From a virus, in the IMG/VR virus record IMGVR_UViG_3300048110_000184, positions 1 through 43,771 of that record: a stretch of DNA of 43,771 nt; one strand, given 5' to 3'. Of the stretch, positions 4,966-43,543 are shown in pieces (within the stretch, counting starts at the first letter, position 1; the number at the start of each line of letters is the position of its first letter). The notes beneath the pieces are model-generated. The model made no database searches. It saw nothing but the letters and a program-made list of their open reading frames with translations, and was not told the origin of the DNA. A program made the position numbers and the translations under genes.

Positions 4966-4988
4966 CTCGGTAGTCTCTATTAGAAGAG
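4966..4988 (+). promoter_or_regulatory. Phage-RNAP-type promoter element, copy a (late region)
   Basis: The + strand carries CTCGGTAGTCTCTATTAG at 4966-4983, in the gap between the endolysin and the next tail gene, 44 bases before its ATG. The same 15-base core, CTCGGTAGTCTCTAT, occurs at two other intergenic places (38360-38382 and 43521-43543), both times on the strand of the gene that follows. The core resembles the T7 promoter around the start site (CTCACTATAG). Inferred role: a promoter for a phage-encoded single-subunit RNA polymerase driving the tail and ejection genes. Confidence 0.7.
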
Positions 4989-13504: not shown

Positions 13505-14530
13505 ATGTCAGTATCTAATGAAGACCTTCAATACCTATTAAGCCTAGGGTTAACCGAGGAACAAGCACTAGCTGCATTAGGTGCTCAACCTATTGACTCA
13601 CAAACTATTGCTTCAGGTGTATCATCTGGTTTAGAGATACAACCTCAAGTACCTACTATAGGGCAAACCATATCAGATCAGATAGTTTCTACAGGTAATG
13701 GTGTTGAAGCACAAGAAGCGCAAGCTAGATTAGATGAGTACGGAAGAGACTCTTCAGACTCTAGTGTAAGGGGCGATGCAAGCACTATACCATTAACAGG
13801 AGACCAGTCTGTTAGTATTACTCAAGATATTCTAAACAGTAATCCAGATGTTTCAAACTACTACGGGTCTAACCCTAATGCTACTTTAGATAATATCTTA
13901 CCAGATGTTATTGCTCCTCCTCTAGATTCTATAGAGATGAGTCATATTCCTACTCAAAGTGATATCTTTGGTACTGACTACGGTGATGGTTCAACTATGA
14001 GTACCTCACCTACTTCAGGTGGTATAGGTGACTTTAGTGATAATGTAACTACCCCTATTGAAGAGCAGTATGGTGAGCAAGTTACATTTGATACATCAGG
14101 TAATGTTGTAACTGGACCTCAATCAGGCACTCCAGGTATTCCAGTAACTTCATTACCAGGTGTAGGTGGTTTAGAGAATTCTCAATACAGCCCAAGGAAA
14201 AAGATAGGGTTTCGTGAAAGAACTAACATCCCACCTGTAGGTAACGATATAGGTTCACCTCCACAAAACAATATACCAAATACACCAACAGTTGAACCTG
14301 ATATAGGAGTACCTCCACCGACTACACCTCCCCCTCAGCCTAACACTGTAGGTGGTGGTTATAGTAATAGTGGTGGTTCTACATTACCAGTGTCAAACGT
14401 AGGATCGTTTCAACAAACAAATGAACCTCCAGTAAGTTTTGGTAACACTCAAAGTACAATAGCATATAGGTCTAGTGGTGGTTTAATACTAGGAGACCCT
14501 ATGCCTGGATATAAGGGTAGAGGAAAATAA
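13505..14530 (+). CDS. Low-complexity structural-region protein
   Basis: A 341-residue protein, mostly Ser/Thr/Gly/Pro/Asn-rich and probably disordered, with a short helical N-terminus (NEDLQYLLSLGLTEEQALAALG, a UBA-like pattern by eye), a proline stretch (PPPTTPPPQP) and a GGLILGDPMPGYKGRGK tail. It has an AGGAG site nine bases after the previous gene, and the next gene follows after one base. No family is recognised. The context suggests a minor virion protein or assembly factor. Confidence 0.6.
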   Translation: MSVSNEDLQYLLSLGLTEEQALAALGAQPIDSQTIASGVSSGLEIQPQVPTIGQTISDQIVSTGNGVEAQEAQARLDEYGRDSSDSSVRGDASTIPLTGDQSVSITQDILNSNPDVSNYYGSNPNATLDNILPDVIAPPLDSIEMSHIPTQSDIFGTDYGDGSTMSTSPTSGGIGDFSDNVTTPIEEQYGEQVTFDTSGNVVTGPQSGTPGIPVTSLPGVGGLENSQYSPRKKIGFRERTNIPPVGNDIGSPPQNNIPNTPTVEPDIGVPPPTTPPPQPNTVGGGYSNSGGSTLPVSNVGSFQQTNEPPVSFGNTQSTIAYRSSGGLILGDPMPGYKGRGK

Positions 14531-14531
14531 T

Positions 14532-16496
14532 ATGAACTTAAAGAAAGTAACACAAAAGAATGCTGATGGTTCATCTATCTCTTATGAGTTTGATGTTCCA
14601 AAGATGCAAGATATACCAGACCACCCAGGGGACCCTAAGGGAACTGATACAGTACCTGCATGGTTAACTCCTGGAGAGTTCGTAATGAACGCTGAGGCTA
14701 CTCGTATGTTTGAGCCACAGATTGAAGCAATGAATAATGCTGGTAGGGCTGTACAGAAAGCCCAAGGTGGTTCTATACCTGAGTATAAAGCTGATGGTGG
14801 GGAGATACCTAATACGCAGAGTGCTGGTGATGTACCTTTAGAGTTATCAGGAGTTAACCCTGCAGAACTATTGTCACAACAACAAGCTGAACGTAAAAGA
14901 GAACTTGAAAGTATTCTTGGTACTCCAGATATTCCAGACAGTTTACCTCTAATTCCTGAGAGAGATCCTAAGTTACAAGCTAAGCTTGATGCAGTTAATC
15001 CTAATTTAAAACCGATTGCAGAAACTCCGAGTCAAGAAGGTCTTGATGTACCTCAGTTAGAACCTGGTGACTTCTTTATTCCTAAAGATATTACTAATGA
15101 TGAAGGTAAAGACTTAATTAAGAAAGCTGAAGCAGATTATGTGAATGGTGATATTTCTAAAGAAGAACTTACCAGAGTTAAAGATGAAGTGTTTGCTGAT
15201 GTTTCTAACACCGCATCTAGAGGTCGTGCTATTGCAGAAGGAGAAAGGGATAAGCTTCTTGAGAAAAGACAACGAGCAATAGATGTTGGTCAAGATACTT
15301 CTGCTATTGATGCTGAGATTGCTGCATTAGATAAGGCAAGTAAAGCACCTCGACCTGATATACTAAGTCGTGAAGATGCACCTCCTTTGCTTAAAATACA
15401 AGCTGCTGTAGCTGCAACAGAAGGTGAGCCTAATCCAGGTAATGATAATAAGACATCTAAAGAAGTAGAAACCGCTGGTAGTGATGTTAAAGATACAGAC
15501 CCAACTATGTGGGAGAAGGCTAAAGGTTTTATCTACGATGCATTCGATGAAGTCTTAGATACCAAAGGTCTCACACAAGCTGCTTTATTATACTTAGGTT
15601 CTCGTGCTTTAGGGTACTCCCACGGAGGTTCTCTTAACTACGTAGGTAAAGCTTATGCACAGCAGATAGGTAACAAACTTAAAGCAGCTGACAAAGCTTC
15701 TTTATCTAATAAGTTTACTAAAGAGTCTGTTGAGAAGTACCGTAAGACTGGTAATGTCTCTGACCTTAAAGCTACATCTAGTTGGTCTGATGATAAGACT
15801 AACATCTACGTTAACAATGCAGGTAAGACCTTTAATGTTGTATCTCAAAAGTCAGCTGATGGTAAGATTAGACATATCGATGTAGACACTGGTAAGCCTA
15901 TAGATATCCGTAAGTTAGAACTTAATGAAGATAGAACTGCTAGGGTAGCTAATAACAGTAAGCGTTCAGCTGGTATTGCAGATGCAGAGTATAGAGCTAG
16001 GATTCCTAAGGATGACCAAGATTCTATCAGATCTCGTCTACCAACCCCTGAAGCTATTGGTAACGCAACATCTACTAAGTTTATAGAGATGGGTTTAAAT
16101 CCAGCTCAAGCTAATAAGATAATAGCGGATATCACTAGAGAGATGATTAAGGATGTTAGTGTTAATGACAAGTTAGAGTTGACTGAAGCATCGTTAATAC
16201 CTTACGTTAATAAACGCATTCTAACTATGTCTTTAGAGCAGCAAGGTTTAGCTAAAGAGTTTGATGGTGTTACTCCTGAAGCTGTTGCTACTACTCTTGG
16301 TTTAAATATTAATCAAGAAGACCCTGTAGCAGTACAAAAGGAAATTAAAGACTTAGCTATGCTATGGAAAAGTTTAAATGCTAAAGGTAAAGAGTATTAC
16401 AATAATCGTAGAACTGAAGGTATGCCACCTATTTTAGTATTACTAGATGAGGTTAACAAAGGTAAGGCTAATAAGGACTTATTTAAAGTCAAGTAA
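14532..16496 (+). CDS. Internal virion/structural protein with DTVPAWLTPGEF motif
   Basis: A 654-residue protein. Near residue 40 it has GTDTVPAWLTPGEFVMN, a motif that recurs in many phage structural proteins, usually as DTVPAMLTPGEFV.N; its function is unknown to me. A YKADGGEIP motif like those in the gene at 12623 follows at about residue 85. The rest is helical and charged, with one moderately hydrophobic stretch (about residues 347-380, LTQAALLYLGSRALGY). The C-terminal third (about 470-654) looks like a compact helical domain. It belongs to the same run as the ejection proteins. Function not known. Confidence 0.6.
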   Translation: MNLKKVTQKNADGSSISYEFDVPKMQDIPDHPGDPKGTDTVPAWLTPGEFVMNAEATRMFEPQIEAMNNAGRAVQKAQGGSIPEYKADGGEIPNTQSAGDVPLELSGVNPAELLSQQQAERKRELESILGTPDIPDSLPLIPERDPKLQAKLDAVNPNLKPIAETPSQEGLDVPQLEPGDFFIPKDITNDEGKDLIKKAEADYVNGDISKEELTRVKDEVFADVSNTASRGRAIAEGERDKLLEKRQRAIDVGQDTSAIDAEIAALDKASKAPRPDILSREDAPPLLKIQAAVAATEGEPNPGNDNKTSKEVETAGSDVKDTDPTMWEKAKGFIYDAFDEVLDTKGLTQAALLYLGSRALGYSHGGSLNYVGKAYAQQIGNKLKAADKASLSNKFTKESVEKYRKTGNVSDLKATSSWSDDKTNIYVNNAGKTFNVVSQKSADGKIRHIDVDTGKPIDIRKLELNEDRTARVANNSKRSAGIADAEYRARIPKDDQDSIRSRLPTPEAIGNATSTKFIEMGLNPAQANKIIADITREMIKDVSVNDKLELTEASLIPYVNKRILTMSLEQQGLAKEFDGVTPEAVATTLGLNINQEDPVAVQKEIKDLAMLWKSLNAKGKEYYNNRRTEGMPPILVLLDEVNKGKANKDLFKVK

Positions 16497-16508
16497 TAGG
16501 AGATACTT

Positions 16509-19500
16509 ATGAGTAATGTAAGTAACTTCCTTAATGAAATTGGTAGGGGCTCTGATGCCCCTTCTGATTCTGTTAAAGAAGTAAACAACACACAACCACT
16601 GTCAGAGTTTAAATGGCTTGACGGTGATACATTAGTAAGCCTGGACGGGGTTAAACACCGTGTACAGGGATTTGACACCCCTGAGATAGGTAAATTTATT
16701 ACTGATGAAGAAGGTAATTACAAATACAAAGCTGGTACAACTGGTGGCTTAGCTGCTGCTGAAACCATTAGGGACTTAGCTACTAAAACTGGATACACTA
16801 ATGTACGTGTGCTAGATGAAGATGCTGCTTATGGACGTAAGACTATAGTGCTTCTTAATGACCGTGGTGAGAACTTCACTGATAGGCTAATTAAAGAAGG
16901 TACCTTAGACCCTGTTGAACAGACAGACCCTAAGCTTATTATGGATAAGGCTTATAATGACCTACTAGGATTCACAGGGACTCGTGAGGACTCCGATGAG
17001 TTCTCTAAAGCTGCACAGGTAATGAAGGATGCTGCTATAGCTGAAGGTTATGACTCATCTAGATTCAAACTTATAGCTGCTAATGAGGCTGCACTACAAC
17101 AAGGTAAGGGTATCGAAGGTCTTTATAATGAAGACACTGTACAGTTTAGAAACCTAGACCGTACACTAGATAACAAATCCCTTAATCCCTTTAGTGACGC
17201 ATGGGACTCTGGTGTTACATCAATGATACAAAGTGCCTATGGTACTGCATCTTTAGTTGGTGATGTGTTTGGATTAGAAGACCTTAAAGAGTTTGGAGAT
17301 GCAGGTACATACCGTCAAGGTGTAGAGCTGTCTAACATGGCTAATATACTATTAGACTATAAAGATGTTGATAGCTTTGGGGATGCTGTGGATTTCCTAG
17401 GTAATAACTTTGCTATGTCTCTACCATACATGGGTATGCTTATAGCTTCTGGTGCAGCTGCTGGTGTGACTGGTGGTGCTTCTCTAGCTGTAATGCCAGG
17501 TATCTACTCTGGTCAAGTCTGGAATGAGCAACCTGAAGATAGTAAGAATGCAGCTCATGCTATTGGTGCAGGTCTTCTGATGAGTGCTCTAGATAGACTA
17601 GGTCTAAAGGGTGCTATCAAGAACACTAGTGCAGCCCCTAAGAAACTCCTTAACGAAGCCATAGAAGCTAACGCTAAGAGACTTGCAGGTACTGATACAG
17701 TTACTGATGCTATTAGAGCTCAAGCTAAAGAACAAGTATTAAACATGACTAAGATGCAGATAGGTAGTTTAGGTAAAGATGTTGTAGATGTAATGTCTAA
17801 CCAACTTAAATCTAAAGATGCTGTCATGGGTATGCTTAAAGGTGTTGGTAAGGGTACTGCGTTTGAGGGTACTACAGAAGCCCTACAGGAATCCATAGGA
17901 TACGTAGGTGCTAACCTAGAGTCAGGTGCTATAGACTTTACTGAGATGGGTGACAGAGCTATTGCTGCTGCTATTGCAGGTGGAGCTATTGGTGGTGGCT
18001 TAGGTGCAGGTGGTGCAGCTATAGACTACGCTAAGTGGGCTGATGTAGCTTGGAGAAAAGCTCCTGCTATGGAGATGGATAAAGCTGAGGCAGATAAGTA
18101 TGCTGATATGGAGATTCAAGAACGTGGTTATATTCGATCTGTACAGGATATTGCAGAGGATACCAATAATGAACTTAAGGAAGAGAACAAAGAAGCTTAT
18201 GTCCAGATAAAGGGTATTAAGAGTAAGATTAGTGACCTTGAGTCTCAGTATGAAGCTGGGTTTATATCGTTTAGTAAATATGAAGAAGAGAAGAAAGCTC
18301 TTGATAAACAAGCAGCTGATATCGATTCTAAGTATAACCTTAATGTTATGAATGAGAGATATGAGAAAGCATATAAAGATAAGACTACTAAAGATAAAGT
18401 CTTTGATGCTCTCAATAGAATCCCTGAGTTATGGAGAAACCAGATTAAGTCTGTTATACCTGCTGACATGCAAGCTAAGGCTGTAGAGTTACGTGAGTTA
18501 GCTGATATGTTTGGTGGTAATCTTAACCGTGTATTCAGTGGTGCATCCTTTGAGAATAGAAAGCATCACATTGTATCTATCTTTAAAGGTATCTCACCAG
18601 ACCCCACGGAAACCTATACAGCACTTAACAATGGTAAGAGAGCTACTCGTAAAGAGAAGCAACAGATTAGCCAACGTGTATACGCTATCTTACAAGCAGC
18701 CACTAATGAGGAGACTGGTAAGTTTGACCCTAGGATGGTACCTAAAGATGTTGAGCATCGTGAAGTTATTACTACGTTAGGTAGGAAACTACAAAAGTTA
18801 GCTGATAAAATGCATGAAGGTCAAGAGCCGTATGCTGATATAGGTAAAGTAAGTAACTACCTAGCTAAGTTTAAAACCTTAGATAAGAATGCTGTTGCTA
18901 GTGATAAAGTAGGGTTCATGAAGTTACTTCAGAAACACTATGATATGTCTGAGGCTGATGCTAAGAAAGTAACAGATGAGATTATCTACAACAATGAGAT
19001 AGCTACAGTTGATGAAGCTATGGATGTTGAAGGTGAGTTCAATGCTGTGTCTGGTGGTTTTAAACCTGGCTCACATAAGAAGCGTACCTTAGGACTCTCT
19101 GAGAACCCTGAGTTCCAACAGTTTATGGAACAGGATATCTTTGCTAACGTATCGTATGCTGCTAAATCTGCTGGTCGTTTCATAGCTAACCAAGAGATGG
19201 TAGGTTTCAATGGTAATGTTATTGCTAAGAAACTTATGGATGCTGTAGATAAAGGTTCTATCACACAAGAGGAAGCTGACCGTATTGCTTATGGTTTAAC
19301 TAACTACCTTAATGCAGAAGCAGGTAACTATAAGAGACCTACTACTGAGACTGGTAAGAAACTACAAGAGATACAACGTAACTTTATCTTCTTCACAACT
19401 ATCGCAGGTCTACCACTAGCTACTATATCTTCTATCGTAGAGATGGCACTAACCTTAACAGCCTTAACCCCTGAGCAAATCTTTGGGTCTAAGGGTAAGG

Positions 19501-20609
19501 AAGGTGGTCTTAAGAAGATGGGTAAAGAGTTTGCTGCTATGTTAATACAAGGGACTCAAGAGGTAGGTAGTGAAGTTGGTTCATTTGGTTTAGGTGCTAA
19601 GGTAGACTTCAATAAGAAACGTACTGCTGCTCAGATTCGTATGCAGGATTTAGGTTTCTATGATTGGGATATTGGTGCAGCTACTAAGACAGGTGTAACT
19701 GAGACCTCTGCATTGAAGCAACGATTCATAGAATTGTTCTTTAAATACAATGGGTTACAGGGTTTCACACAAATGACTCGTGCTGTACGTACATCTATTG
19801 CTGGTGATTACATCTTTGATAAGCTTGATGATATCTTAACTGCTGACCTAGATGGTGGTCCTTTAGATAAGGGTACACTAGAATCCATTAGGCATCTAAG
19901 GGATTTAGGTATGGATGTTAACATGACATCTCTAAAACAGCTTAAGGATATTATGACTAAGCATCAGGTAGGTGTTGAGTTAAGTCCTGAGGAAGATGCT
20001 TTCTTAGATAAGCAGTTACGTGAAGCTACTTACAGTTTTGTAAACCAAGCTATCATGTTACCGTCTGCAGCTAACCGTCCATTGTGGTTACAAGACCCTC
20101 GATTTGCACTGTTCAATCAGTTCCAAGGTTTCATATCTACATTTACATCTACATATATCCCAAGGTTATGGGGTGAGTATGTTAAACGTGGTAGTCCAGC
20201 TATGAAGTATAATGCTTTTGCTACTATGGCTACTATGATACTACTAGGTTTTGTCTCTCAAGAGATTAAGGATCAACTTAAGTACGGAGAAACATCACCA
20301 TATCTAGATGAAGCTGAATGGTTACGTCGTGGTATTAGTTCATCAGGTCTCTTAGGCTCTAGTGAACGTGTAATAAACACACTATACCCAATGTATGAGA
20401 CTCGTTCTGATGGTGTCTTTGAGTGGGCATGGAATGAAGCTAGTGGTCAATCACCTGCTATAGGTTCTATGGCATCTGGTATTGGCGGTGTAGGTAATAT
20501 TATAGAAGGTGAAACAACTAGAGGTATGGATAAGCTATTACGTCTAACACCAGTAGGACCAATCACTTGGTTCCGTAAAGACCTAGCTGAACTTCTAGGA
20601 GGAGAATAA
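16509..20609 (+). CDS. Giant internal virion protein with N-terminal SNase-like nuclease domain
   Basis: A 1366-residue protein with an AGGAG site. Residues of about 34-135 form a staphylococcal-nuclease-type domain with the whole active site visible: DGDT (D38, D40, T41), HRVQGFDTPE (R51, D56, T57, E59) and YGRKTIV (R110), matching R35, E43, R87 and the calcium ligands of the classical enzyme. Then come a Gly/Ala-rich hydrophobic region (about 293-337), a coiled coil (about 550-625), a second hydrophobic segment (about 957-990), and a C-terminal region (NRPLWLQDPRFALFNQF, then a membrane-like segment at about 1231-1254) that resembles large internal/ejection proteins of podoviruses. Inferred role: packaged in the virion and injected, possibly attacking host DNA or aiding entry. 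The nuclease call is firm by motif; activity is unproven. Confidence 0.75.
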   Translation: MSNVSNFLNEIGRGSDAPSDSVKEVNNTQPLSEFKWLDGDTLVSLDGVKHRVQGFDTPEIGKFITDEEGNYKYKAGTTGGLAAAETIRDLATKTGYTNVRVLDEDAAYGRKTIVLLNDRGENFTDRLIKEGTLDPVEQTDPKLIMDKAYNDLLGFTGTREDSDEFSKAAQVMKDAAIAEGYDSSRFKLIAANEAALQQGKGIEGLYNEDTVQFRNLDRTLDNKSLNPFSDAWDSGVTSMIQSAYGTASLVGDVFGLEDLKEFGDAGTYRQGVELSNMANILLDYKDVDSFGDAVDFLGNNFAMSLPYMGMLIASGAAAGVTGGASLAVMPGIYSGQVWNEQPEDSKNAAHAIGAGLLMSALDRLGLKGAIKNTSAAPKKLLNEAIEANAKRLAGTDTVTDAIRAQAKEQVLNMTKMQIGSLGKDVVDVMSNQLKSKDAVMGMLKGVGKGTAFEGTTEALQESIGYVGANLESGAIDFTEMGDRAIAAAIAGGAIGGGLGAGGAAIDYAKWADVAWRKAPAMEMDKAEADKYADMEIQERGYIRSVQDIAEDTNNELKEENKEAYVQIKGIKSKISDLESQYEAGFISFSKYEEEKKALDKQAADIDSKYNLNVMNERYEKAYKDKTTKDKVFDALNRIPELWRNQIKSVIPADMQAKAVELRELADMFGGNLNRVFSGASFENRKHHIVSIFKGISPDPTETYTALNNGKRATRKEKQQISQRVYAILQAATNEETGKFDPRMVPKDVEHREVITTLGRKLQKLADKMHEGQEPYADIGKVSNYLAKFKTLDKNAVASDKVGFMKLLQKHYDMSEADAKKVTDEIIYNNEIATVDEAMDVEGEFNAVSGGFKPGSHKKRTLGLSENPEFQQFMEQDIFANVSYAAKSAGRFIANQEMVGFNGNVIAKKLMDAVDKGSITQEEADRIAYGLTNYLNAEAGNYKRPTTETGKKLQEIQRNFIFFTTIAGLPLATISSIVEMALTLTALTPEQIFGSKGKEGGLKKMGKEFAAMLIQGTQEVGSEVGSFGLGAKVDFNKKRTAAQIRMQDLGFYDWDIGAATKTGVTETSALKQRFIELFFKYNGLQGFTQMTRAVRTSIAGDYIFDKLDDILTADLDGGPLDKGTLESIRHLRDLGMDVNMTSLKQLKDIMTKHQVGVELSPEEDAFLDKQLREATYSFVNQAIMLPSAANRPLWLQDPRFALFNQFQGFISTFTSTYIPRLWGEYVKRGSPAMKYNAFATMATMILLGFVSQEIKDQLKYGETSPYLDEAEWLRRGISSSGLLGSSERVINTLYPMYETRSDGVFEWAWNEASGQSPAIGSMASGIGGVGNIIEGETTRGMDKLLRLTPVGPITWFRKDLAELLGGE

Positions 20610-20612
20610 TTA

Positions 20613-23600
20613 ATGGCTAATAAAATTAGTGGGGTAGCTAAAGGAGCCCCTATGGAAACCCCTGTAGAGAAACTGCAGGAGGTTTTAGGTACTAACCAAC
20701 AGGATACTACCTATGTAGAACAGAGTCCCGTAGAGAGTCCCTCAGGGGCTCCTGTGGATAGTGGTACAGTTGATGCTATATTACCTCCAGACCAAACATT
20801 TGCTGAAGCTACTCCTGAGGATTTGAATAGACCTCAAGAAGCCCAGTCATCTCTTGGTATGAGTAGAGATGATGATGGTCAGTTAGAGTTTGATAGAGTT
20901 GGTGATGATACTAGGTATCAGTATAAAACATTTACACCAGTACAAGTAGGTAATCCTTTAGCTCTAGAGGACCGTATTGATAATGTAGTACAGAACTTTA
21001 AGAACAAGGAGGTGTACTTCGGTACTACTCCAGCTCCTGAAGGTGCTCCTACTCGATACATCCCACAGGCTATGCAACAGATTGGTGTTACTGAACCTGA
21101 GATGGAAAGCTTCTTAACTGTTGGTGCTTTAGTTACAGAGGAAGCTATTGCTGACTCAATGAATACCACATCTAAAGATGCTCAAGACCAACTCAATAGT
21201 TACTTAGGTACTACAGGTAAGATAGAAAACCCCTTCCCTTCAGAGCTTGAAGAAGGTGCTATGTATAAGAAGGCTAATCTTAACTACCGAGTTGGTAGAG
21301 AGATTGCTAACGAGTACCAGAAGTTTAAGACTGGTGGTGCTGAAGCTGAAGTTGCTATTGGTAAGGATGAAGCTACTGCTTTAGGTGATGCATTCCTAGA
21401 GGTATACGCTAGTTCTAATCCTGATATGATTGAGAGAGCTCAAGAGAGTACTGAGGGTGATAGTGTTAGAAGAACAAACATCTTCAAACTTAATGCTCAA
21501 GGTGCTGACATACTTAACCAATCAGCTAAGCGTCGTAAGGAACTGTTCCCTAGTAAACTCCTTAGAGCTCGTAAGACCCCACACAGTAGTGCTGGACCTG
21601 AGACTAAGATAGTTGGTCAGTTAAACCATAAAGGTGGTAGGATATTCCAGGAGGCTATGAAGAACCTAGGTAGTATTGGTAATGTAGTTATACCTCGACG
21701 AGGTAAAATACTTCTTATGAGTTTACTGCCTTCACTTATGGGTAACCAATCTCAAACAGCTAAGTTAGGTGCTGAGATTAACAAAGCTGGCGTAGGTAAG
21801 ATGGTTGAGCTTAGAGCTAGAGCTGCTGCTAATGGTATCACAGACCCTCAAGAGGTACAGAAGTATGTCATAAAGGGTATGTCAGTAATACAGAACACAG
21901 CTGCTAATGCTTTATATGGTATAGCTACTGAACGTCGTGGTGCTAACTACCTTGACTACTACCTTACAGCTTTCAACAACCGTATAGCTCCTATGCAAAC
22001 CTTGTTTGACCCAACATCTTTTAAGCAAACTAGATTTGTAACAGGTAGTGCTACTCCTGCTATGATTACTATAGGTAGTAAGTTTGAACGTAACCTTAGA
22101 CAAATGTATGCTATGCATTTAGTTGAGGGTGCTGATATGAAACTACCTGTAGAACGTGAGAGAATGCTAAGGGAATCTCACTCACAACTCTACAGTGATG
22201 GTAAGTTACTACGTGAGTTAATAGATAAGATGGATAACGATTCTTATGAAGATGTTATGTCTGCTATTGAGAAGAATACCCCTCTAAGTGATCCTGTATT
22301 CCGTAAGGTTACAGGTTTAAACCTTGACCCTGAAAACCAACAACATGCTGACTTAATGTTACGTATCAAAAGCCAGGGTGAAGATGGTATGATGTTTATT
22401 GATGGTCTTATTGATTACGCTAACTACTATGATGCTTTATACAACCCAGCAACTAGGGGTAAGAACCCACAGTTTGCTACGTACTTTAATGCATACATGG
22501 ATGGTAAGACTAACGGCTTAGCAGCTAATGCTTTAGTACTTGGTATCAAGAGACTTGCGTACTCTACAGGGGTTCTAAGGGAAAGTAAGACTGACCTATT
22601 AGATAATGGTGATATCCGTAATGATGTTGAAGCTACATTTAAAAACATGATTATGAACCATGACTTCCAGTTAGATGAAGAATCTAATCAACTCCTTAGG
22701 GAAGTAGCTTTAACTATCAACCCTGATAGTAAACTACATAAAAACTCTACGATGACCTATGGTTATGGTATGGACCCTATAGCGTTTGAGATATACTTAG
22801 ATACTGCTATACAGAATAAGATTGCCGAAGGTGATATGGAGTTACAGACTGCATTTGAACAAGTAGAAGGTACACTAGCTTCAACAGGTAAGGGGACTCT
22901 CATGGGTTCTCTGGTAGCTAACGCTCTTAATACTGTTTACCAACAAGCTGTAGTTAATAGTCTAAGCCCTGAGATGCTTGAAGCCCGTAAGCTTATGAAG
23001 GGTGTAGCTCTTATGCATGGGTTCACTGATGATATGTTTGAGATTGATGGACCACTAGGTCGTGTCATGAAGCTATCATTCGGTGGTAAGATTATGGAAG
23101 ATTATGATGATGCTACTAAGATTAAGTATTCAACATATGAAACTGACCCTGAGACTGGTGAGTCTAAACGTAGCCAAAGTACTGCTGTACGTTACGATGC
23201 AGATAGAGCAACCTCAGCTGCCCCTAAGAGAAACTTTAGAGGTGAGGATGTACCTGGGCTTAGAGGAGCTAACGGTTCTGTTGTTGGTGCAGTACAAGCT
23301 ATTGACTCAGCTACTCTATTCAAACTACATTCTGGTAAGAGTTGGCAGAGACTTATGAGTGCTTCTAAAGGTAACCCATACTTACATACTATCCACGATG
23401 CTATCAAAGTAGATGCTATGAGTTATGATGTTGTACTTGATGAGGTTAATAAGAACTGGCTTGAGACTTCTATGAACTACAACTATGTAAAGGAAGCTCA
23501 CACAGCTCTTGATAATATCTCTGGTAAGTTTAGAGAGTATATGCAGAAGATTCCTAAGGATATCAAGGTATCTATTGGTAAGGGTTCTAAGTATCAGATG

Positions 23601-23963
23601 ATTGGTTATGCTTTACAACCTGAGACTAAGACAAGTCTTAAGGGTAAAACGTATACAGTATATCCTAACTTAGAGAAGTACTTATCTTTAACTGGTGTAC
23701 CCAAGGAGGATGTTAGACAAATGGCATGGACTATTGTTAAGGAAACAGGTATTAAAGAGGGAGAAGAACTTGCATCCCCTATGAATATCCAAAGGTTCCT
23801 TAAATCATTTGCTTCATACACTAACGTCAAAGGTAGATTGAATAACTTAGAGTCTCGTATAGATGCTAATAAGAAATCACTATACCCTATGTTTGCTAAG
23901 CAACTTAAGAACGGTAGATGGGTAGCTACAGCTGATGATGTTTATCAGTACTACTCGCATTAA
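20613..23963 (+). CDS. Putative virion RNA polymerase, diverged T7/N4-type single-subunit
   Basis: A 1116-residue protein, last of the virion-protein run. The region of about 440-945 shows the ordered signatures of single-subunit RNA polymerases. NNRIAPMQTLFDP (R457) corresponds to the D-x-RGR-x-Y region. YMDGKTNGL (D630) is motif A, like DGSxNG. HKNSTMTYGYG (K710 and Y718, eight apart as in T7 K631/Y639 and N4 K670/Y678) is motif B. VQAIDS followed by TIHDAIKVDA (H928-D929) is the pre-motif and motif C with the second catalytic aspartate. The first 330 residues are a separate acidic/helical region, and about 170 residues follow motif C. The arginine four residues before the motif B lysine is not present. 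Gene position recalls the N4 virion polymerase, although that protein is about three times longer. Inferred: injected with the DNA to transcribe early genes. Confidence 0.72.
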   Translation: MANKISGVAKGAPMETPVEKLQEVLGTNQQDTTYVEQSPVESPSGAPVDSGTVDAILPPDQTFAEATPEDLNRPQEAQSSLGMSRDDDGQLEFDRVGDDTRYQYKTFTPVQVGNPLALEDRIDNVVQNFKNKEVYFGTTPAPEGAPTRYIPQAMQQIGVTEPEMESFLTVGALVTEEAIADSMNTTSKDAQDQLNSYLGTTGKIENPFPSELEEGAMYKKANLNYRVGREIANEYQKFKTGGAEAEVAIGKDEATALGDAFLEVYASSNPDMIERAQESTEGDSVRRTNIFKLNAQGADILNQSAKRRKELFPSKLLRARKTPHSSAGPETKIVGQLNHKGGRIFQEAMKNLGSIGNVVIPRRGKILLMSLLPSLMGNQSQTAKLGAEINKAGVGKMVELRARAAANGITDPQEVQKYVIKGMSVIQNTAANALYGIATERRGANYLDYYLTAFNNRIAPMQTLFDPTSFKQTRFVTGSATPAMITIGSKFERNLRQMYAMHLVEGADMKLPVERERMLRESHSQLYSDGKLLRELIDKMDNDSYEDVMSAIEKNTPLSDPVFRKVTGLNLDPENQQHADLMLRIKSQGEDGMMFIDGLIDYANYYDALYNPATRGKNPQFATYFNAYMDGKTNGLAANALVLGIKRLAYSTGVLRESKTDLLDNGDIRNDVEATFKNMIMNHDFQLDEESNQLLREVALTINPDSKLHKNSTMTYGYGMDPIAFEIYLDTAIQNKIAEGDMELQTAFEQVEGTLASTGKGTLMGSLVANALNTVYQQAVVNSLSPEMLEARKLMKGVALMHGFTDDMFEIDGPLGRVMKLSFGGKIMEDYDDATKIKYSTYETDPETGESKRSQSTAVRYDADRATSAAPKRNFRGEDVPGLRGANGSVVGAVQAIDSATLFKLHSGKSWQRLMSASKGNPYLHTIHDAIKVDAMSYDVVLDEVNKNWLETSMNYNYVKEAHTALDNISGKFREYMQKIPKDIKVSIGKGSKYQMIGYALQPETKTSLKGKTYTVYPNLEKYLSLTGVPKEDVRQMAWTIVKETGIKEGEELASPMNIQRFLKSFASYTNVKGRLNNLESRIDANKKSLYPMFAKQLKNGRWVATADDVYQYYSH

Positions 23964-24276: not shown

Positions 24277-26361
24277 TTAAGCGAAGAAGTAATCGCTATC
24301 GTTAATATCATTTATTTCTAAGTCACCTAGAGCTGGTTGCTCATGGGTACTTCCAATCTTACCTTCCATCACATCAAAGTAGTTAGGGTTATCATACATC
24401 TCAATGAAGCATCTCTTTGTAATAGACAATAGATTATCTACATCTGATGCATGTGTACTGAAGCTATCATGTACAGCACCGAAGGGTCCATTGAACTCAT
24501 CGATAACTAGACTCATATGACTAGCATCTTGACTATGTATAAAGTTAGGAGAGATACCACACATGTAACCTCGTAAGTCTGGTTTCATAGACTCAGTTTT
24601 AGCTACGTGTTTTATCTGACCTATACCTTGGATACTCCCACGTTGTCTCTCAGAGTACTTATGGTAACAAGTATATACCACAGGGAATCCCGAAGGAGTT
24701 ACCCAGGTAATGTAGTTGTAACCTTGGTTAAGTCTTTCTACTGCTAACTTCTGTAGGAACTTCATAGTCTTCAGTGGTCCTGGACAGACTAACTCAATAG
24801 CCTTCACGAGGTCCCTAGAGAATCCCTTACAGTGTGCTTCAGTAATACCATACTCTTCTACATAACCAGCAGTCTTACAATCTATATACATGTTCTCAGC
24901 AATCTTCTGAGCACCTGCAGAGTAAGCCCTAGTCATACTCCCACGTTTACTAATACCTTTACGTATCTTCTTCATGGGCATCTTAGAGAGTATCTCCTTT
25001 CTCTCAGCATCCTTAGTTATCTCTATCATCTTCTTAGCTGTCTGAACATAGAAGTCATTCTGTATTCCAACAGGTACAAGACCAACCAACTCACCAGTCT
25101 GTACATCTTTACTGATAGCACCAAGATGCTGCCAACCATTGTTACTACCGTCAACAGGGATAGGTAAGTCACTATAGTAATAACCATCGCTGTTATAGTA
25201 GTTATATATCTCAATGGCTGCAGATAGGAATGATACAGGTTTCTCACAGTCATGAAGTTTCTTATTGACAGCTGTCTCATGTATCTTCTCCATGTTGTTA
25301 TCACACCATAACTCCCTATCACGTAGAGTCATCTTATCTACAGAGATATCATCAAGACCTTCAGAGTCTAAGTGAGCCTTGTAGTCAGACGTACACCACT
25401 CAGGTATACTACCCTTTGAGAAGCTCTCATTGAAGCTAGAAGCGCAATGAATCTTAATCCAACGTAACCCCTCAGGGGATACTATTCTCTTCTCAGAGAA
25501 CCTTAGGATGCCCCTGGCGAGGTCACTACCTTGGAAGTTCATATAGCTTTCTACATAGTAGATACGACCACGGTAATCCATATCCAATGCAAAGAAGAAC
25601 TCATTGAGTTCACTGAGACACTTAGCCTTTACCATTGTGTATTTGTAGTCTATCTTCTTAGAGAGGTTCTCAACAGTGTTAGAGGTTTCACTGTAGAACA
25701 AGTTAGGGTTACTAAGTACTGCATCTAGTGTATCCTTATCTACCTTCCAACCTACCTGTTGTAGTTTATTCAAAGCAGATATAGCTTTAGTGTTAACTAT
25801 GTTAGAGAATAAACCATCAAGCTTCTCATCCCATCTTTTAATAATTGGTCTAATAAACTTAGGGTCACTCTTAGTTAACTGTATAATCTGCTCAGCTCTA
25901 TTGATATCCTTAGGTCTTGAACCCCAGATACCATGGAGAGACATCCTCTCGACTTCCTTAGGGAGTCCCATGGGGAACCCCTCTAACACTACAACTTTGA
26001 CTGGCTTACTAGATTTATGTGGAGGAGTAACTACATCTACATAACCTAGTTGATAGAAGGTCTCTATCATTAAGTCACCTATACGTACCTGATCCCTCCA
26101 ATCATGAAACCTTGGGTTAGTTAAAGTAGAAACTATGCGAGACCCTATAGATATACTACAGTTAGTTAACCTACAGTAGGTCTCACCATTAATAGTTTCA
26201 GATTGCTTACTTATAATCTGATGTGTTATCAATGCAAAGACCTTGAACTTCTCTTCAACATCTGGGAATTGACTTAAGAACTTAACACCAAAAGAGTGTC
26301 TTGAGGGATTAGCAGATAGCTTCAGCCTCAAGTACAACTCTACATTTTCTACCCAATCCAT
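24277..26361 (-). CDS. T7-like single-subunit DNA-directed RNA polymerase
   Basis: A 694-residue enzyme with all catalytic elements of the T7 family: DYRGRIYY (R266), PIPVDGSNNGWQHLGA (D404, equivalent to T7 D537), IRKGISKRGSMTRAYS (K472 and Y480, equivalent to K631 and Y639) and AVHDSF (D632, equivalent to D812). The specificity-loop region (WVTPSGFPV ... Q.G..QI) and a C-terminal ...SDYFFA, close to the T7 'FAFA' foot, are present. It is shorter than T7 RNAP (883 residues), mostly in the N-terminal domain. It is the second-last gene of the early strand, far from the early start, so it is not made first. Inferred: transcribes middle/late genes from the promoter-like elements at 4966, 38360 and 43521. 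Confidence 0.96.
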   Translation of the reverse strand: MDWVENVELYLRLKLSANPSRHSFGVKFLSQFPDVEEKFKVFALITHQIISKQSETINGETYCRLTNCSISIGSRIVSTLTNPRFHDWRDQVRIGDLMIETFYQLGYVDVVTPPHKSSKPVKVVVLEGFPMGLPKEVERMSLHGIWGSRPKDINRAEQIIQLTKSDPKFIRPIIKRWDEKLDGLFSNIVNTKAISALNKLQQVGWKVDKDTLDAVLSNPNLFYSETSNTVENLSKKIDYKYTMVKAKCLSELNEFFFALDMDYRGRIYYVESYMNFQGSDLARGILRFSEKRIVSPEGLRWIKIHCASSFNESFSKGSIPEWCTSDYKAHLDSEGLDDISVDKMTLRDRELWCDNNMEKIHETAVNKKLHDCEKPVSFLSAAIEIYNYYNSDGYYYSDLPIPVDGSNNGWQHLGAISKDVQTGELVGLVPVGIQNDFYVQTAKKMIEITKDAERKEILSKMPMKKIRKGISKRGSMTRAYSAGAQKIAENMYIDCKTAGYVEEYGITEAHCKGFSRDLVKAIELVCPGPLKTMKFLQKLAVERLNQGYNYITWVTPSGFPVVYTCYHKYSERQRGSIQGIGQIKHVAKTESMKPDLRGYMCGISPNFIHSQDASHMSLVIDEFNGPFGAVHDSFSTHASDVDNLLSITKRCFIEMYDNPNYFDVMEGKIGSTHEQPALGDLEINDINDSDYFFA

Positions 26362-29242: not shown

Positions 29243-29542
29243 TTAGTCCTTAACGAATACACCATCAACCATCTTACCAGTACGTTGACTGATAGTATCA
29301 TATGCTTGTTGTAAGCATTCCTCTAAGGTTAAATCCCAAGCATGAGTCTGCATGATTAGAGTTACCATGATATCTCCAATGGCATCCTTAACTTCATACA
29401 AGTCCTCATCTAAGATAGCCTCGAAGAGTTCTATTACTTCTTCCTTAGTCTTACCGTACTGTGCCATAGGGTCAGGGTTAGGTAGGATACCTTTCTGGAA
29501 ACCCCACTCACTTACTTTCATTTCTAAGATATCTAAACTCAT
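29243..29542 (-). CDS. mazG: MazG-like nucleotide pyrophosphohydrolase
   Basis: A 99-residue all-helical MazG-type protein. The metal-binding pattern is visible: KTKEEVIELFEAI in the first helix pair and VKDAIGDIMVTL in the second, with the C-terminal QRTGKMVDGVFV that is usual for phage MazG. Members hydrolyse nucleoside triphosphates to monophosphates; in phages they have been linked to dNTP balance or (p)ppGpp levels. It overlaps the glutaredoxin gene (ATGA) and precedes thyX by two bases. Confidence 0.88.
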   Translation of the reverse strand: MSLDILEMKVSEWGFQKGILPNPDPMAQYGKTKEEVIELFEAILDEDLYEVKDAIGDIMVTLIMQTHAWDLTLEECLQQAYDTISQRTGKMVDGVFVKD

Positions 29543-29793
29543 TCGTTGTCCTCCAGGTATCCCATCAAGTTTGTATAACCACCAATGTACTTATGTACAA
29601 CTCCATCTTCAACTAAGAAGATTTGTGGTACAGTCTTAAACTTGATACCTGCGATATCTTGTAGTTCCTTTTGTTCATCAGGAGTAGTATCCATTAGATC
29701 AATATAGACCCAATCCTTTTCTTTATTAGTTAATACATTCTTAGCTTGGATGCAATATCCACATGCTTGTGTTCCGTATATATGATATTCCAT
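29539..29793 (-). CDS. Glutaredoxin
   Basis: An 84-residue glutaredoxin. The start at 29793 is preferred because AGGATT precedes it; the longer frame just adds repeated Met codons. The redox pair is C11-G-Y-C14, and the cis-proline motif TVPQIF and the GGYTNLMGY glutathione-side loop are present. It is the expected electron donor to the class I ribonucleotide reductase encoded upstream, whose large subunit keeps the C-terminal CxxC. It overlaps mazG by four bases. Confidence 0.93.
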   Translation of the reverse strand: MEYHIYGTQACGYCIQAKNVLTNKEKDWVYIDLMDTTPDEQKELQDIAGIKFKTVPQIFLVEDGVVHKYIGGYTNLMGYLEDNE

Positions 29794-29794
29794 A

Positions 29795-29890
29795 TTAATC
29801 CTCATCATCATCTAGTATAAGTAGTGTCATTATAAATAAAGCAAGAAGGATGGTTATAGTCCACCCTACATTGCTTGGCAGATGTAACAT
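29795..29890 (-). CDS. 31-residue single-span membrane peptide
   Basis: MLHLPSNVGWTITILLALF and then IMTLLIL followed by an acidic tail (DDDED). One membrane segment occupies nearly the whole peptide. Its ATG overlaps the stop of the zinc-ribbon gene (ATGA), a GGAGG site stands before it, and its stop is one base before the glutaredoxin ATG. The exact fit between neighbours supports a real gene. Function unknown. Confidence 0.65.
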   Translation of the reverse strand: MLHLPSNVGWTITILLALFIMTLLILDDDED

Positions 29891-30300: not shown

Positions 30301-30322
30301 AGCGAGTCGCTTGCGACGAGCC
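30301..30322 (-). promoter_or_regulatory. Early-strand hairpin element, copy 1
   Basis: Between the nrdA stop and the next ribosome-binding site, the - strand reads GGCTC, stem GTCGC, AA, stem GCGAC, TCGCT. The core CGCAAGCG and the flanks GCTC and TCGCT are shared with the elements at 38326 and 42489, while the outer stem bases change in pairs. It could be an RNA processing or stability hairpin or a hairpin promoter; no T-run follows, so it is not a normal terminator. Confidence 0.6.
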
Positions 30323-32007
30323 TATTGACAGGCAACACACTCATCTTTAGAAGCTTGAACACCAGCCTTAGAGTATACATAGTATAATGCTAAGATATTA
30401 GGGTCCTTAAAGGCTTCCTTATGTACTTCATTAATATACTCTTCGTCACCATCAGCAGCAAAGAATAAGTTTAGAGATTGCCATTGGTCAATATGTTGTG
30501 AACGTTGTGATGCTAGTTGTATTACAGCCATCTGAGGTATCTCAAAAGCTGTACGGAATACTGCTTTATCCTCATCATCTAACCAGTCAACATTCTGTAC
30601 TGAACCCATAGCCTCTCGTACTTCTTCGATATACTTCTTAGAGTATACACCTTTCTCTTTCATCAACTCAAGTAGCTCAGGGTTGATACGTTCAATCTCA
30701 CCTGCTGCTGTACGTTGTGTATAGACATAAGCTGTGTCGGGGTTGATACCTTCAGATACACCACCCATAATTAGAGCAGTAGACTTAGTAGGAGCTACAG
30801 CGATACGGTGTGTATTAGCCATACCATAACCTTTCATCCACTCTGGCTCACCCCAGGTTTCCGCTATCCACTCAGAGGCTCTACGGGATTCTGAATCTAA
30901 CAGGCGGAATACTTCCATGTTAAGTAACATAGATTGTAAGTCACCAAACACAAAGCGTTTCTTCTGGAACAACGTATGTAAACCACATACACCTAGACCT
31001 AATGCACGAGACTTCTTAGTGAATGCAATAGCTTTCTCTAATCCTGGTACATTCTTACCACGTTCAATGAACTCTTGGCATACTGCATCTAAGAATACTG
31101 TAGCTACAAATACTGCATCAGTGTCCTTCCAGTCCTCATAGAACGCTAGGTTCATAGAAGATAGTACACATGTATACGTGTAGTCTTTAGAGCTGTGTAA
31201 CATAATCTCAGCGCATAACTGAGGGGCTTTGATATCTAACCCTTGGTCAACATACCACTGTGGACGTTTAGCATTAGCCTTATCAGGGAAGAAGAAGTAA
31301 CCTTTACCAGTTATCATCTTAGTCTTCATAGCCATACGGTAACGCTCAATAGCATCCTCATCACCTGCACTTAGCTTCTCAATGAAACTATCAGGGATAC
31401 ACCAACCAATGTTATTACCATCAGGGTTATGTAATAGGTCATCACATATCTCTGGGAAATCCCCATGGTCAATAGGTAGATAACCTGCCCATGAACCACG
31501 TCGAGATGTACCTTGTGCTACATACTGCATAGCTTGACGGTATGACTCAAGTACTGGTAGGACTCCTGAAGACTTACCACCAACACTAATCTCACTACCA
31601 CGAGGTCTGATATCACCTAAGTAACTAGCTGTACCGAACCCTGCTTTAGTTAAGGCTGCTGTCTCATGTAACCCACTGTAGATAGCATCAATAGAGTCTT
31701 CTATGTATGAACCACCACAACTTACAGGTAACCCACGAGTAGTACCAATGTTAGCTAGTACTGGTGTCGATGGGGACAACCAACCTTTCCATAGTAGGTT
31801 AAAGAACTTATCCTTCCACTCATTAGGGTTAGGGGTATGTGTTGCTAGTGTAGATGCAATACGTTCATACTGTTCTTTAGGGTTGTTAGCTTGGTATAGG
31901 TACTTCTCTTTAAACAACTGCCAACCTGGAGTTGTGTACCAATCAGGTGCTAGACCTTCCTCTTGTAGTTTCTTACGTTCTTCTGATAGCTTGTTATAAA
32001 TACTCAT
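30322..32007 (-). CDS. nrdA: Class I ribonucleotide reductase large subunit, compact, no ATP cone
   Basis: A 561-residue NrdA that reduces ribonucleotides with NrdB. Active-site elements line up with E. coli NrdA: C97 (LPVSCGG, C225), C265 and E267 (QLCAEIML, C439 and E441), C280 (TCVLSSMNLA, C462), Y542-Y543 (LYYVYSKAG, Y730-Y731) and the C-terminal C557/C560 pair in ECVACQ. Position 263 is Gln where Asn437 is expected. The N-terminus begins directly at the catalytic barrel region, so the allosteric ATP cone is missing and dATP feedback should be lost. It is preceded nine bases upstream by nrdB; glutaredoxin lies downstream. Confidence 0.95.
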   Translation of the reverse strand: MSIYNKLSEERKKLQEEGLAPDWYTTPGWQLFKEKYLYQANNPKEQYERIASTLATHTPNPNEWKDKFFNLLWKGWLSPSTPVLANIGTTRGLPVSCGGSYIEDSIDAIYSGLHETAALTKAGFGTASYLGDIRPRGSEISVGGKSSGVLPVLESYRQAMQYVAQGTSRRGSWAGYLPIDHGDFPEICDDLLHNPDGNNIGWCIPDSFIEKLSAGDEDAIERYRMAMKTKMITGKGYFFFPDKANAKRPQWYVDQGLDIKAPQLCAEIMLHSSKDYTYTCVLSSMNLAFYEDWKDTDAVFVATVFLDAVCQEFIERGKNVPGLEKAIAFTKKSRALGLGVCGLHTLFQKKRFVFGDLQSMLLNMEVFRLLDSESRRASEWIAETWGEPEWMKGYGMANTHRIAVAPTKSTALIMGGVSEGINPDTAYVYTQRTAAGEIERINPELLELMKEKGVYSKKYIEEVREAMGSVQNVDWLDDEDKAVFRTAFEIPQMAVIQLASQRSQHIDQWQSLNLFFAADGDEEYINEVHKEAFKDPNILALYYVYSKAGVQASKDECVACQ

Positions 32008-32016
32008 GTTGTTCCT

Positions 32017-32973
32017 CTAAAATGTAAAGCCTTGACCTGTCCAGTTACGTTGGTATTGATTACCTACAGATACAAAGAAGTCATTCATAGCGTACCCATT
32101 GATACCCTTATAGAACCACTCAGATACTGGATTGTAATCTACCTTGTGGATGTTATTGAATCCCATGTTACGCATACATACGTTGATACGAGACTTAACA
32201 AAAGACATCATCTGTGTCTTAGTAATACCTTCGATATCACCCTTCTCAAATAGCTTATTAACAATAGCTTCTTCATGGTCTAACACTTTATCTGCAATAC
32301 CTTTGAAGTATTCTTCATACTCTTCTAGGTCTAGTCCAGCTTCATGTGCATACTGTTGGAACAACCAACCTGCAGCTTCACTATGTAACGCTTCATCACG
32401 AGCAGAGAAGTTAATACCAGCTACTACATTCAACAGTTTGTTCTTACCTTGAGACTGAAAGTGCTTAAGGAATGCGAATGAACTATATAGGATAGCACCT
32501 TCACCAAATGTAAATGCACCTAGAGCCTTAGCGATATCATCATGACCTAAGATATTATCGAGGAACTTAATACGGTCAGACAATACAGGGTCTGAGGTAT
32601 AGCTTGTGTAGAACTCATCGGTTGCTAGGTTTAACTCTTCATTAATCTTACGGTAGAATGGAGCGTGTACTGATAGTTCCACAGCACCAAAGAGAGAAGC
32701 CATAGCTTGAATCTCTGGGCGTGGGAACCACTGCATTACTTTCTCAATCCAGAACTCTTCACCAATAATCATTTCATATTTAGTAAACAGTTTAAGGGTT
32801 GTAATTACTGCATGACGTTCTGATTCTGTCATGTTCACAAGGATATCTTGTTTATCCTTCTCTACTTTAATCTCTTCTGGAGGCCAAAAGACGTTTGCTT
32901 GTTTGTTTGTGTACTCAACGGCTGCTGGGTAGTCAATCGTCGGTGTCATCTTTCTTGTTGTTATCTTTAACAT
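32017..32973 (-). CDS. nrdB: Class I ribonucleotide reductase small subunit
   Basis: A 318-residue ferritin-like NrdB that makes the radical for NrdA. Metal ligands by alignment to E. coli are E67 (D84), E99 and H103 (VELSVH), E158 (FGEGA), and E194/H197 (RDEALH). Y107 (HAPFY) sits four residues after the histidine, like Y122. The first Glu-His pair is four apart (ExxxH) instead of the usual three. The first ATG overlaps RusA by 41 bases with a weak site; ATG 32949 is an alternative. It forms one operon with nrdA. Confidence 0.93.
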   Translation of the reverse strand: MLKITTRKMTPTIDYPAAVEYTNKQANVFWPPEEIKVEKDKQDILVNMTESERHAVITTLKLFTKYEMIIGEEFWIEKVMQWFPRPEIQAMASLFGAVELSVHAPFYRKINEELNLATDEFYTSYTSDPVLSDRIKFLDNILGHDDIAKALGAFTFGEGAILYSSFAFLKHFQSQGKNKLLNVVAGINFSARDEALHSEAAGWLFQQYAHEAGLDLEEYEEYFKGIADKVLDHEEAIVNKLFEKGDIEGITKTQMMSFVKSRINVCMRNMGFNNIHKVDYNPVSEWFYKGINGYAMNDFFVSVGNQYQRNWTGQGFTF

Positions 32974-35989: not shown

Positions 35990-36694
35990 TTACTCAAAGC
36001 CCTTAGGGAACTTCTTGTGTTTAGCTTTAATGTAATCTCCGACAAGTCCACTACGGACAATATCATCTTCATCGAAGTAGTTAAAATCAAACCTATCAGG
36101 CATACCTTCAATGACCTGTAGGAACTTCTCAATGTTCTTCTCAGAGCTTTTAGTGAAGTCACGCTGTAGTATGTCACCACAGATAACAACCTTACTGTTA
36201 CGTCCTATACGAGTTAAGACTGAGTCAGCTTCATGAGCTGTCATGTTCTGGAACTCATCAACAATAACGATACTGTTATCGATAGTAAGACCACGAATGA
36301 ATGATGTTAACATGAATCGAATACCATCATGCTTAGTTAAGATACCATAGGCATCATCACGACCAAACAATTCACTACATACTTTCTTGTACGGTAACTC
36401 ATAGACAGCACCCTTCTCATCTTCAGAACCCTTTAGGAAACCAATGTCCCTTGTAGGTACTGCAGAACGTACTATACATACACGTCTATACTCGTTGTTA
36501 GTAGCCTCAACCTCTTTAAATGCATTGTACATAGCCATGAAAGTCTTACCAGTACCTGAGTAACCTAGTAGTAGCTGACTCTTATCACTTTTGTAGTTAT
36601 TAAAGAATACCTCTTGATTAGGTGTTAACGGTGATACATCTGAAATCTTAAAGTTATTATCGTTAATAACGTTTTTAACTTTCTTCCTGGCCAT
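35990..36694 (-). CDS. phoH: PhoH-like ATPase
   Basis: A 234-residue PhoH-family P-loop protein with Walker A GYSGTGKT (residues 44-51), Walker B IVIVDEFQNM (D146/E147), a RSAVPTRDIGFLKG loop and an ICGDILQRD sensor segment. PhoH is common in marine phages; an RNA-related ATPase/helicase-like role is suspected, but its function in phages is not settled. It lies just upstream of the DNA polymerase, with a 47-base gap containing no clear signal. Confidence 0.93.
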   Translation of the reverse strand: MARKKVKNVINDNNFKISDVSPLTPNQEVFFNNYKSDKSQLLLGYSGTGKTFMAMYNAFKEVEATNNEYRRVCIVRSAVPTRDIGFLKGSEDEKGAVYELPYKKVCSELFGRDDAYGILTKHDGIRFMLTSFIRGLTIDNSIVIVDEFQNMTAHEADSVLTRIGRNSKVVICGDILQRDFTKSSEKNIEKFLQVIEGMPDRFDFNYFDEDDIVRSGLVGDYIKAKHKKFPKGFE

Positions 36695-38359: not shown

Positions 38360-38382
38360 TTCTCTAATAGAGACTACCGAGG
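38360..38382 (-). promoter_or_regulatory. Phage-RNAP-type promoter element, copy b
   Basis: The - strand carries CTCGGTAGTCTCTATTAGAG, identical to copy a (4966) over 18 bases and pointing at the 131-residue gene at 37899-38294. It lies in a 205-base non-coding region. Confidence 0.7.
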
Positions 38383-38468: not shown

Positions 38469-38471
38469 GAT

Positions 38472-42488: not shown

Positions 42489-42510
42489 AGCGAACCGCTT
42501 GCGGTGAGCC
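42489..42510 (-). promoter_or_regulatory. Early-strand hairpin element, copy 3
   Basis: The - strand reads GGCTC, ACCGC, AA, GCGGT, TCGCT, upstream of the SSB gene. The stem pairs AC/GT where copy 1 has GT/AC and copy 2 has CT/AG. The core CGCAAGCG is unchanged. Confidence 0.6.
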
Positions 42511-43397: not shown

Positions 43398-43416
43398 ACA
43401 GACTCCTTAAGATAGT

Positions 43417-43520: not shown

Positions 43521-43543
43521 CCCCTCCTATAGAGACTACCGAG
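43521..43543 (-). promoter_or_regulatory. Phage-RNAP-type promoter element, copy c
   Basis: The - strand carries CTCGGTAGTCTCTATAGGAG. It shares CTCGGTAGTCTCTAT with copies a and b, and its CTATAGG equals the T7 promoter sequence around +1, which would put the start near 43527. It points at the block of small early genes. A looser relative (CTCGGTAAGTCCCTTAG) sits upstream at about 43566-43582. Confidence 0.72.

Follow-up and report, generated by a model that had tools for sequence, protein, structure and literature searches.

Does a marine phage that encodes an ordinary T7-like RNA polymerase (RNAP) carry a second polymerase among its virion proteins? The question is raised by an uninterrupted open reading frame (ORF) at 20613-23963 of the IMG/VR virus record IMGVR_UViG_3300048110_000184, which was analyzed over its whole length of 43,771 bases (referred to here as the window). 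A first-pass annotation had described the ORF product (P0001) as a hidden single-subunit RNA polymerase (ssRNAP) of the T7/N4 family, packaged in the virion judging by gene position and coexisting with a standard T7-like RNAP. The results presented here indicate that the gene almost certainly encodes a second ssRNAP, and sequence comparisons make it very probable that the enzyme is of the type of the N4 virion RNA polymerase (vRNAP).

Catalytic motifs, protein family and predicted fold

The ORF carries all of the motifs quoted in the first-pass annotation and in the right order, namely R457, YMDGKTNG (D630), KNSTMTYGYG (K710 to Y718-G719), VQAIDS (D898) and TIHDAIK (H928-D929). The spacings given for them were also correct, with 80 residues from D630 to K710, 211 from Y718 to D929 and eight from the motif B Lys to Tyr, while the N4 values of 111 and 273 agree with N4 gp50 (D559, K670, Y678 and D951 in mini-vRNAP numbering). 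Half of the motif C assignment had to be revised: D929 is present in 50/50 relatives, but H928 is replaced by Tyr in 49/50, so that YDA is typical of the family and the window phage, with HD, is exceptional. Motif C across the Schitoviridae is FDG in N4 and FDG, HDA or YDA in others; therefore, the Asp alone is diagnostic.

As a single sequence, P0001 had no match in Pfam, NCBIfam or PDB sequences, no tblastn match in 50,697 phage records, and found almost nothing as sole query in an IMG/VR peptide scan. The T7-type RNAP family PF00940 did not match P0001 and matched one relative at E 0.0038, below cut-off. PHROG 414 ('RNA polymerase') matched P0001 residues 593-779 (E 3.4e-4) and one relative at 3e-7. 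The family was reached via the neighbouring T7-like RNAP gene (24277-26361, minus strand), which led to related contigs. On these, a full-length P0001 homologue of approximately 30% identity is encoded by the gene that faces the RNAP. An IMG/VR profile scan yielded 56 loci and, after extraction, about 50 distinct proteins, 45-50 of them alignable over given sites; all those of the window group are from uncultured phages. The relatives reach approximately 1385 aa, compared with 1116 aa for the window protein. Among 84,980 bacterial and archaeal species genomes scanned for the family, the matches were just two metagenome-assembled contigs, and thus no sign of a prophage was seen.

Residues invariant among the relatives covering the respective region comprise R457, Q462, K471, R474, D630, G631, K632, T633, G635, K710, M714, Y718, G719, D898, D929 and the C-terminal H1116 (45/45 for R457; 46/46 for D630, G631, G635, K710, M714, Y718 and G719; 50/50 for D898 and D929). 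Homologues lacking the catalytic residues would have refuted the assignment; instead, these residues are retained throughout the 45-50 aligned members, H928 excepted. Two vRNAP homologues in the family alignment have a weak Pfam NADAR match (best E 1e-4), either an extra domain or noise.

An AlphaFold2 model of P0001 was built from the family alignment, with a predicted local distance difference test score (pLDDT) of 78.3, a predicted template modeling score (pTM) of 0.77 and very low confidence for residues 1-116. The right-hand polymerase fold implied by the motifs was recovered, the model matching T7, mitochondrial RNAP and N4 mini-vRNAP structures, and the best 50 PDB matches listed were all ssRNAPs of these kinds. 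Among the matches listed, T7 RNAP had the best E-value (1.8e-16) and N4 mini-vRNAP (3c3l) the highest query TM-score (0.46). Of the BFVD matches listed, the one with the highest query TM-score (0.48) was a 1122-residue fragment of a 'coil containing protein' from a Vibrio phage; several annotated vRNAPs scored 0.37-0.42. In the modeled secondary structure, D630 is placed at a strand end (627-631), K710 in helix 706-716, Y718 just past this helix and D929 in a beta-hairpin turn (924-927/930-933), positions that in the model agree with the palm and fingers of ssRNAPs.

Relationship to the N4 and T7 polymerases

Membership in the T7/N4 polymerase family, as first proposed, held and was refined: by profile comparison, the window family resembles the catalytic third of the N4 vRNAP more closely than it does T7 RNAP. 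The window family was compared using hhalign with an alignment of 21 Schitoviridae-type vRNAP domains, and other families and reversed profiles served as controls. The N4-family comparison gave a probability of 96.7 and E 3.4e-10, pairing R457 with N4 R424 and D630 with N4 D559. E-values of the controls were 0.13-0.27 for the T7-like family, 0.04 for the family of gp33 of phage CRP-7 (see below), 0.26-0.43 for four other phage families and 0.2-0.6 for reversed profiles (0.2 for reversed N4). Motifs B and C were compared with N4 by eye (AK....YG; aromatic or His, then Asp). Furthermore, an N4-family hidden Markov model picked up two members of the window family (E 1.3e-5 and 1.3e-4), and tblastn of one member against the 50,697 phage records yielded 10 weak matches, of which 7 fell at the vRNAP gene of N4-like phages (three such phages and a near relative). 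These matches are of low significance, several are duplicates of one phage, and some of the records are annotated 'hypothetical protein'.

The N4 gp50 mini-vRNAP (residues 998-2103) resembles the window enzyme in its GR..NPxSxKxxR, DGxTNG and R..AK....YG motifs, its aromatic/His-Asp motif C, and a nearly Cys-free catalytic domain of approximately 1100 aa. The gene for gp50, like the window gene, is the last of the virion block and convergent with the early/middle region, and N4 likewise has a T7-like second RNAP and hairpins of the same geometry before early genes. N4 gp50 is approximately 3500 residues long, whereas the window protein is without the 1000-residue N-terminal and 1400-residue C-terminal domains. 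The companion RNAP is gp15/gp16 in N4 but a single T7-like chain in the window, the hairpins of the window, unlike those of N4, have CGC-AA-GCG cores over 12 kb, and genomes are approximately 58-60 kb in the window group (longest contigs) as against 70-75 kb in the N4 type. The T7 RNAP/Autographiviridae family (PF00940) shares the ssRNAP fold and catalytic residues with the window enzyme but differs in its non-significant profile match and in its Cys content (see below), and the window phage has a separate true T7-like RNAP besides the N4-type enzyme. The phiKZ-type multisubunit vRNAP and the P23-45 tape-measure-fused vRNAP are virion-carried RNAPs transcribing early genes, as is proposed for the window enzyme, but they are kin of cellular multisubunit RNAPs and not ssRNAPs (PMC10770324).

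Gene context and candidate promoters

The vRNAP gene closes the rightward virion block, after a 1366-aa protein and facing the T7-like RNAP, and in the family loci read it also comes after the ejection protein at the end of this block. Coexistence with a standard T7-like RNAP was borne out in the window and in 33/33 contigs tested, which encode it as a separate gene. The four window genes within 13505-23963 (3477 aa) contain no Cys at all. Within the vRNAP family, Cys is absent from 33/38 members and occurs once in 5/38; N4-family domains are similar (none in 19/21), compared with 15 per 1000 aa in T7-like RNAPs. Lack of Cys has been read as a mark of ejected proteins (PMC10747016) and is so read here, as an argument from composition. 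Gene position, Cys-free composition and the convergent orientation towards the T7-like RNAP, comparable to that of N4 gp50 towards the early genes, agree, suggesting that the window RNAP is probably packaged and injected.

The element CGCAAGCG is found three times in the window (42505, 38342 and 30317; 0.09 expected), always intergenic and on the early-gene strand. Each copy centres a 5-bp stem in which the outer pairs differ yet are complementary, and TCGCT follows the stem. Related genomes contain 2-4 copies each of CACGC-AA-GCGTG, CACGC-TAT-GCGTG or CACAC-TNN-GTGTG, then TCKCTTT or TCGT, with most copies located 20-170 nt upstream of an ATG; the scanned loci G001 and G004 are near-duplicates of each other. 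In the hairpin alignment (A6), which leaves out G007, the stem is 100% paired over 12 distinct sequences with compensatory changes at 3/5 pairs, while slid controls reached at most 68%. A scan of N4 for 5-bp stems with 3-nt loops returned 22 hairpins in 8.1 kb, among them GTTGC-TTC-GCAAC, GAAGC-TCC-GCTTC and GCTGC-TCC-GCAGC before gp1, gp2 and gp15, which are presumably P1-P3. Published descriptions give the N4 vRNAP promoters as hairpins in which a GC-rich core is combined with variable complementary bases and a loop of three bases (PMC4496689), and the window hairpins resemble them. Judged from sequence, use of the hairpins as promoters by the window RNAP seems moderately likely.

A plausible, though less favored, possibility is that the hairpins are RNA elements for processing or stability at transcript 5' ends, or protein operators. 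They lie near ribosome-binding sites, three are downstream of a T7-like promoter sequence, and compensatory changes alone fit DNA and RNA hairpins alike. However, most hairpin copies are without an upstream T7-like promoter, the loops vary (AA, TTC, TTT, TGC, TAT), and geometry, orientation and distance to the ATG match the three N4 elements obtained from the same kind of scan. An alternative hairpin suggested by DNA folding of the window elements, AGCG-NNN-CGCT, was rejected, since only the CGC-AA-GCG stem accounts for the compensatory changes.

The likely promoter of the T7-like RNAP is a different sequence, CTCGGTAGTCTCTATWRGA, predicted from three copies in the window, one of which precedes a late gene.

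Proposed transcription program, alternatives and phage group

Overall, the best explanation, and one held with good confidence, is a compact N4-type vRNAP that is packaged, injected and responsible for early transcription from hairpins. The vRNAP would be packaged as the last member of the ejection set, injected along with the DNA, and would use short DNA hairpins as promoters for the leftward early genes at a stage when the phage has yet to make any protein. One early product would be the phage's own T7-like RNAP, which would then take over the middle and late genes from its different promoter (CTCGGTAGTCTCTATWRGA). We infer packaging, ejection, catalytic activity, hairpin promoter use and the order of the cascade alike.

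Several results weigh against this explanation. The TM-scores in PDB and BFVD are moderate (mostly 0.36-0.48) and the root mean square deviations high; therefore, the fold class is supported and a close structure is not. The best N4 alignment ends past motif A, with approximately 15% identity over the aligned stretch. Since the flanking domains of the N4 enzyme are absent, ejection would need another mode. The hairpin loops are 2 nt in the window versus 3 nt in N4, and CRP-7, like the majority of the more distantly related contigs scanned, yielded no matching hairpins.

It is unlikely that the product is an ejection protein descended from an ssRNAP, no longer catalytic and with only a structural or pilot role (gp16-like). 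Its gene would fit in the ejection module, where it is as Cys-free as its neighbours, and loss may have occurred in the CRP-7 subgroup, which has Arg for the motif B Lys (RGLVVAGLYG). In the window's own family, however, all catalytic residues are invariant at approximately 30% overall identity, a pattern that would hardly be expected unless catalysis were under selection.

The window family was also compared with CRP-7-type phages, by gene position and chained profiles. CRP-7-type phages encode a Cys-free 1200-1260-aa protein in the same slot, between the ejection protein and the T7-like RNAP; in Roseobacter phage CRP-7 this is gp33 (QBQ72826.1, 'hypothetical protein', 1235 aa; L002 7860-11567). 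Like the window enzyme, gp33 and its positional equivalents have no Cys (18/18), and the YG of motif B is invariant. Four groups can be distinguished among the CRP-7-type proteins, connected with the window family by a chain of profile matches (E 5e-8 between group C and the window family over nearly the full length; C to D, 3e-8; B to D, 4e-24), and K(8)YG is kept in three of the four. CRP-7's own subgroup matches the window family weakly (E 0.0055), BLAST of P0001 against CRP-7 gp33 found no similarity, and activity in this subgroup is doubtful because of the Arg. An AlphaFold model of a CRP-7-type protein had a pLDDT of 46 and was not used. The positional equivalents of the vRNAP diverge very fast, and the CRP-7 subgroup may have lost activity.

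Still less probable is an active second RNAP synthesized late and left out of the virion, for example to transcribe late genes. The second promoter class in the window would fit such an enzyme, but it is Cys-free like ejection proteins and N4 vRNAPs and unlike T7-like RNAPs, in the loci read its gene comes last in the virion block, behind that of the ejection protein, its closest homologue is the packaged N4 enzyme, and related hairpins precede early genes. A coincidental set of motifs in a structural protein of unrelated origin, for which the lack of Pfam, NCBIfam and PDB sequence matches to P0001 alone could speak, is refuted by family invariance and by the fold and profile matches, and its probability is practically nil.

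The phage group has an N4-type portal (PHROG 1216; E 4e-86 in the related 58.7-kb contig G005 and 2.4e-83 in CRP-7). The major capsid protein (MCP), read in relatives and not in the window, is PHROG 1328 in G005 and CRP-7 and PHROG 1357 in N4. N4 gp51-53 are PHROGs 6126, 2646/16623 and 2220, whereas the window ejection genes match 25241, 6958 or none. By the features tested, the non-N4 MCP and the unmatched ejection genes therefore place the group outside the Schitoviridae. The combination of portal PHROG 1216 with MCP PHROG 1328 is seen in L171 (5439-7628 and 9580-10746) and L170.

The vRNAP is described in the literature as unique to the Schitoviridae and as their hallmark (PMC12633501), and one in podophage StenR_269 was earlier guessed from size and absence of cysteine (PMC10747016). 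As far as the databases and literature searched show, this kind of enzyme is known; what is new is its compact form, the group of phages that carries it and its pairing with a T7-like RNAP of a single chain. There is an even chance that compact, injected, hairpin-promoter ssRNAPs coupled to a T7-like RNAP occur in marine podoviruses outside the Schitoviridae, including the diverged CRP-7 lineage, and that they work without the two giant flanking domains of N4. If true, ssRNAPs that are injected and use hairpin promoters did not originate with the giant N4 enzyme, and such marine phages make their first transcripts without host RNA polymerase. A natural vRNAP consisting of the catalytic core only, in a different capsid, would make the role of the giant N4 flanking domains testable, along with the question of whether the use of hairpin promoters predates N4 or extends beyond it. 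The assignment also names an unannotated marine phage protein (no NCBIfam match; Pfam below cut-off), for which cultured CRP-7 gp33 offers an experimental handle.

Table 1. Predicted features of the window, with coordinates and strand.
Feature	Coordinates	Strand	Remarks
Predicted compact N4-type virion RNA polymerase (P0001)	20613..23963	+	1116 aa, ATG start, no Cys; from homology, model and profiles
R457, GR motif NNRIAPMQTLFDP	21981..21983	+	invariant 45/45; aligned with N4 mini-vRNAP R424 (hhalign)
Motif A DGKTNG, catalytic D630	22500..22517	+	D invariant 46/46; aligned with N4 D559 (DGVTNG)
Motif B, K710 to Y718-G719	22740..22769	+	K, Y, G invariant 46/46; N4 counterpart K670/Y678
QAID element, D898	23295..23306	+	D invariant 50/50
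Motif C HDA, catalytic D929	23394..23402	+	D 50/50; relatives YDA, N4 FDG
Candidate vRNAP hairpin promoter 1, ACCGC-AA-GCGGT then TCGCTTT	42494..42505	-	~60 nt before ATG at 42430
Candidate vRNAP hairpin promoter 2, CTCGC-AA-GCGAG then TCGCTAA	38331..38342	-	~35 nt before ATG at 38294
Candidate vRNAP hairpin promoter 3, GTCGC-AA-GCGAC then TCGCTAAGGAGG	30306..30317	-	15 nt before ATG at 30289
Candidate T7-like RNAP promoter, CTCGGTAGTCTCTATTAGA	4966..4984	+	before late gene at 5032
Candidate T7-like RNAP promoter, same 19-mer as 4966..4984	38363..38381	-	
Candidate T7-like RNAP promoter, CTCGGTAGTCTCTATAGGA	43525..43543	-	
Large ejection-type virion protein, directly upstream of vRNAP gene	16509..20609	+	1366 aa, no Cys; PHROG 6958
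Probable second ejection protein	14532..16496	+	654 aa, no Cys; role from position and composition
Probable third ejection protein	13505..14530	+	341 aa, no Cys; putative role
Ordinary T7-like RNA polymerase	24277..26361	-	694 aa; Pfam PF00940 E 1.1e-55; convergent with vRNAP gene

Further repeats were observed near the promoter candidates. At the start of the leftward early region (43404-43470), short palindromes lie approximately 11 bp apart (AGATATCT twice, AGAGAACTCT and AAGGGAACCCTT); a AGATATCT-AAG-AGATATCT hairpin at 43421 was dropped, perfect hairpins of at least 7 bp with 3-nt loops showing no excess. The sequence CTAACCGACA is repeated just upstream of a T7-like promoter and hairpin (approximately 38408-38477, minus strand), and AACCGACAAA/ACCGACAT-type repeats are found in other genomes of the group (L153, L157, L161 and L162 listed). 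The CTAACCGACA and AACCGACAAA/ACCGACAT-type repeats are perhaps a replication origin or operator. In the relative G005, an endolysin domain (PHROG 7, residues 156-296) is encoded two genes ahead of the vRNAP (L062 2638-5685), in what is thus an ejection-position protein with a lytic domain. Host-metabolism genes are present in the window at 29539-29811, 30322-32973 and 35990-36694, encoding a glutaredoxin-like protein, both ribonucleotide reductase subunits and PhoH.

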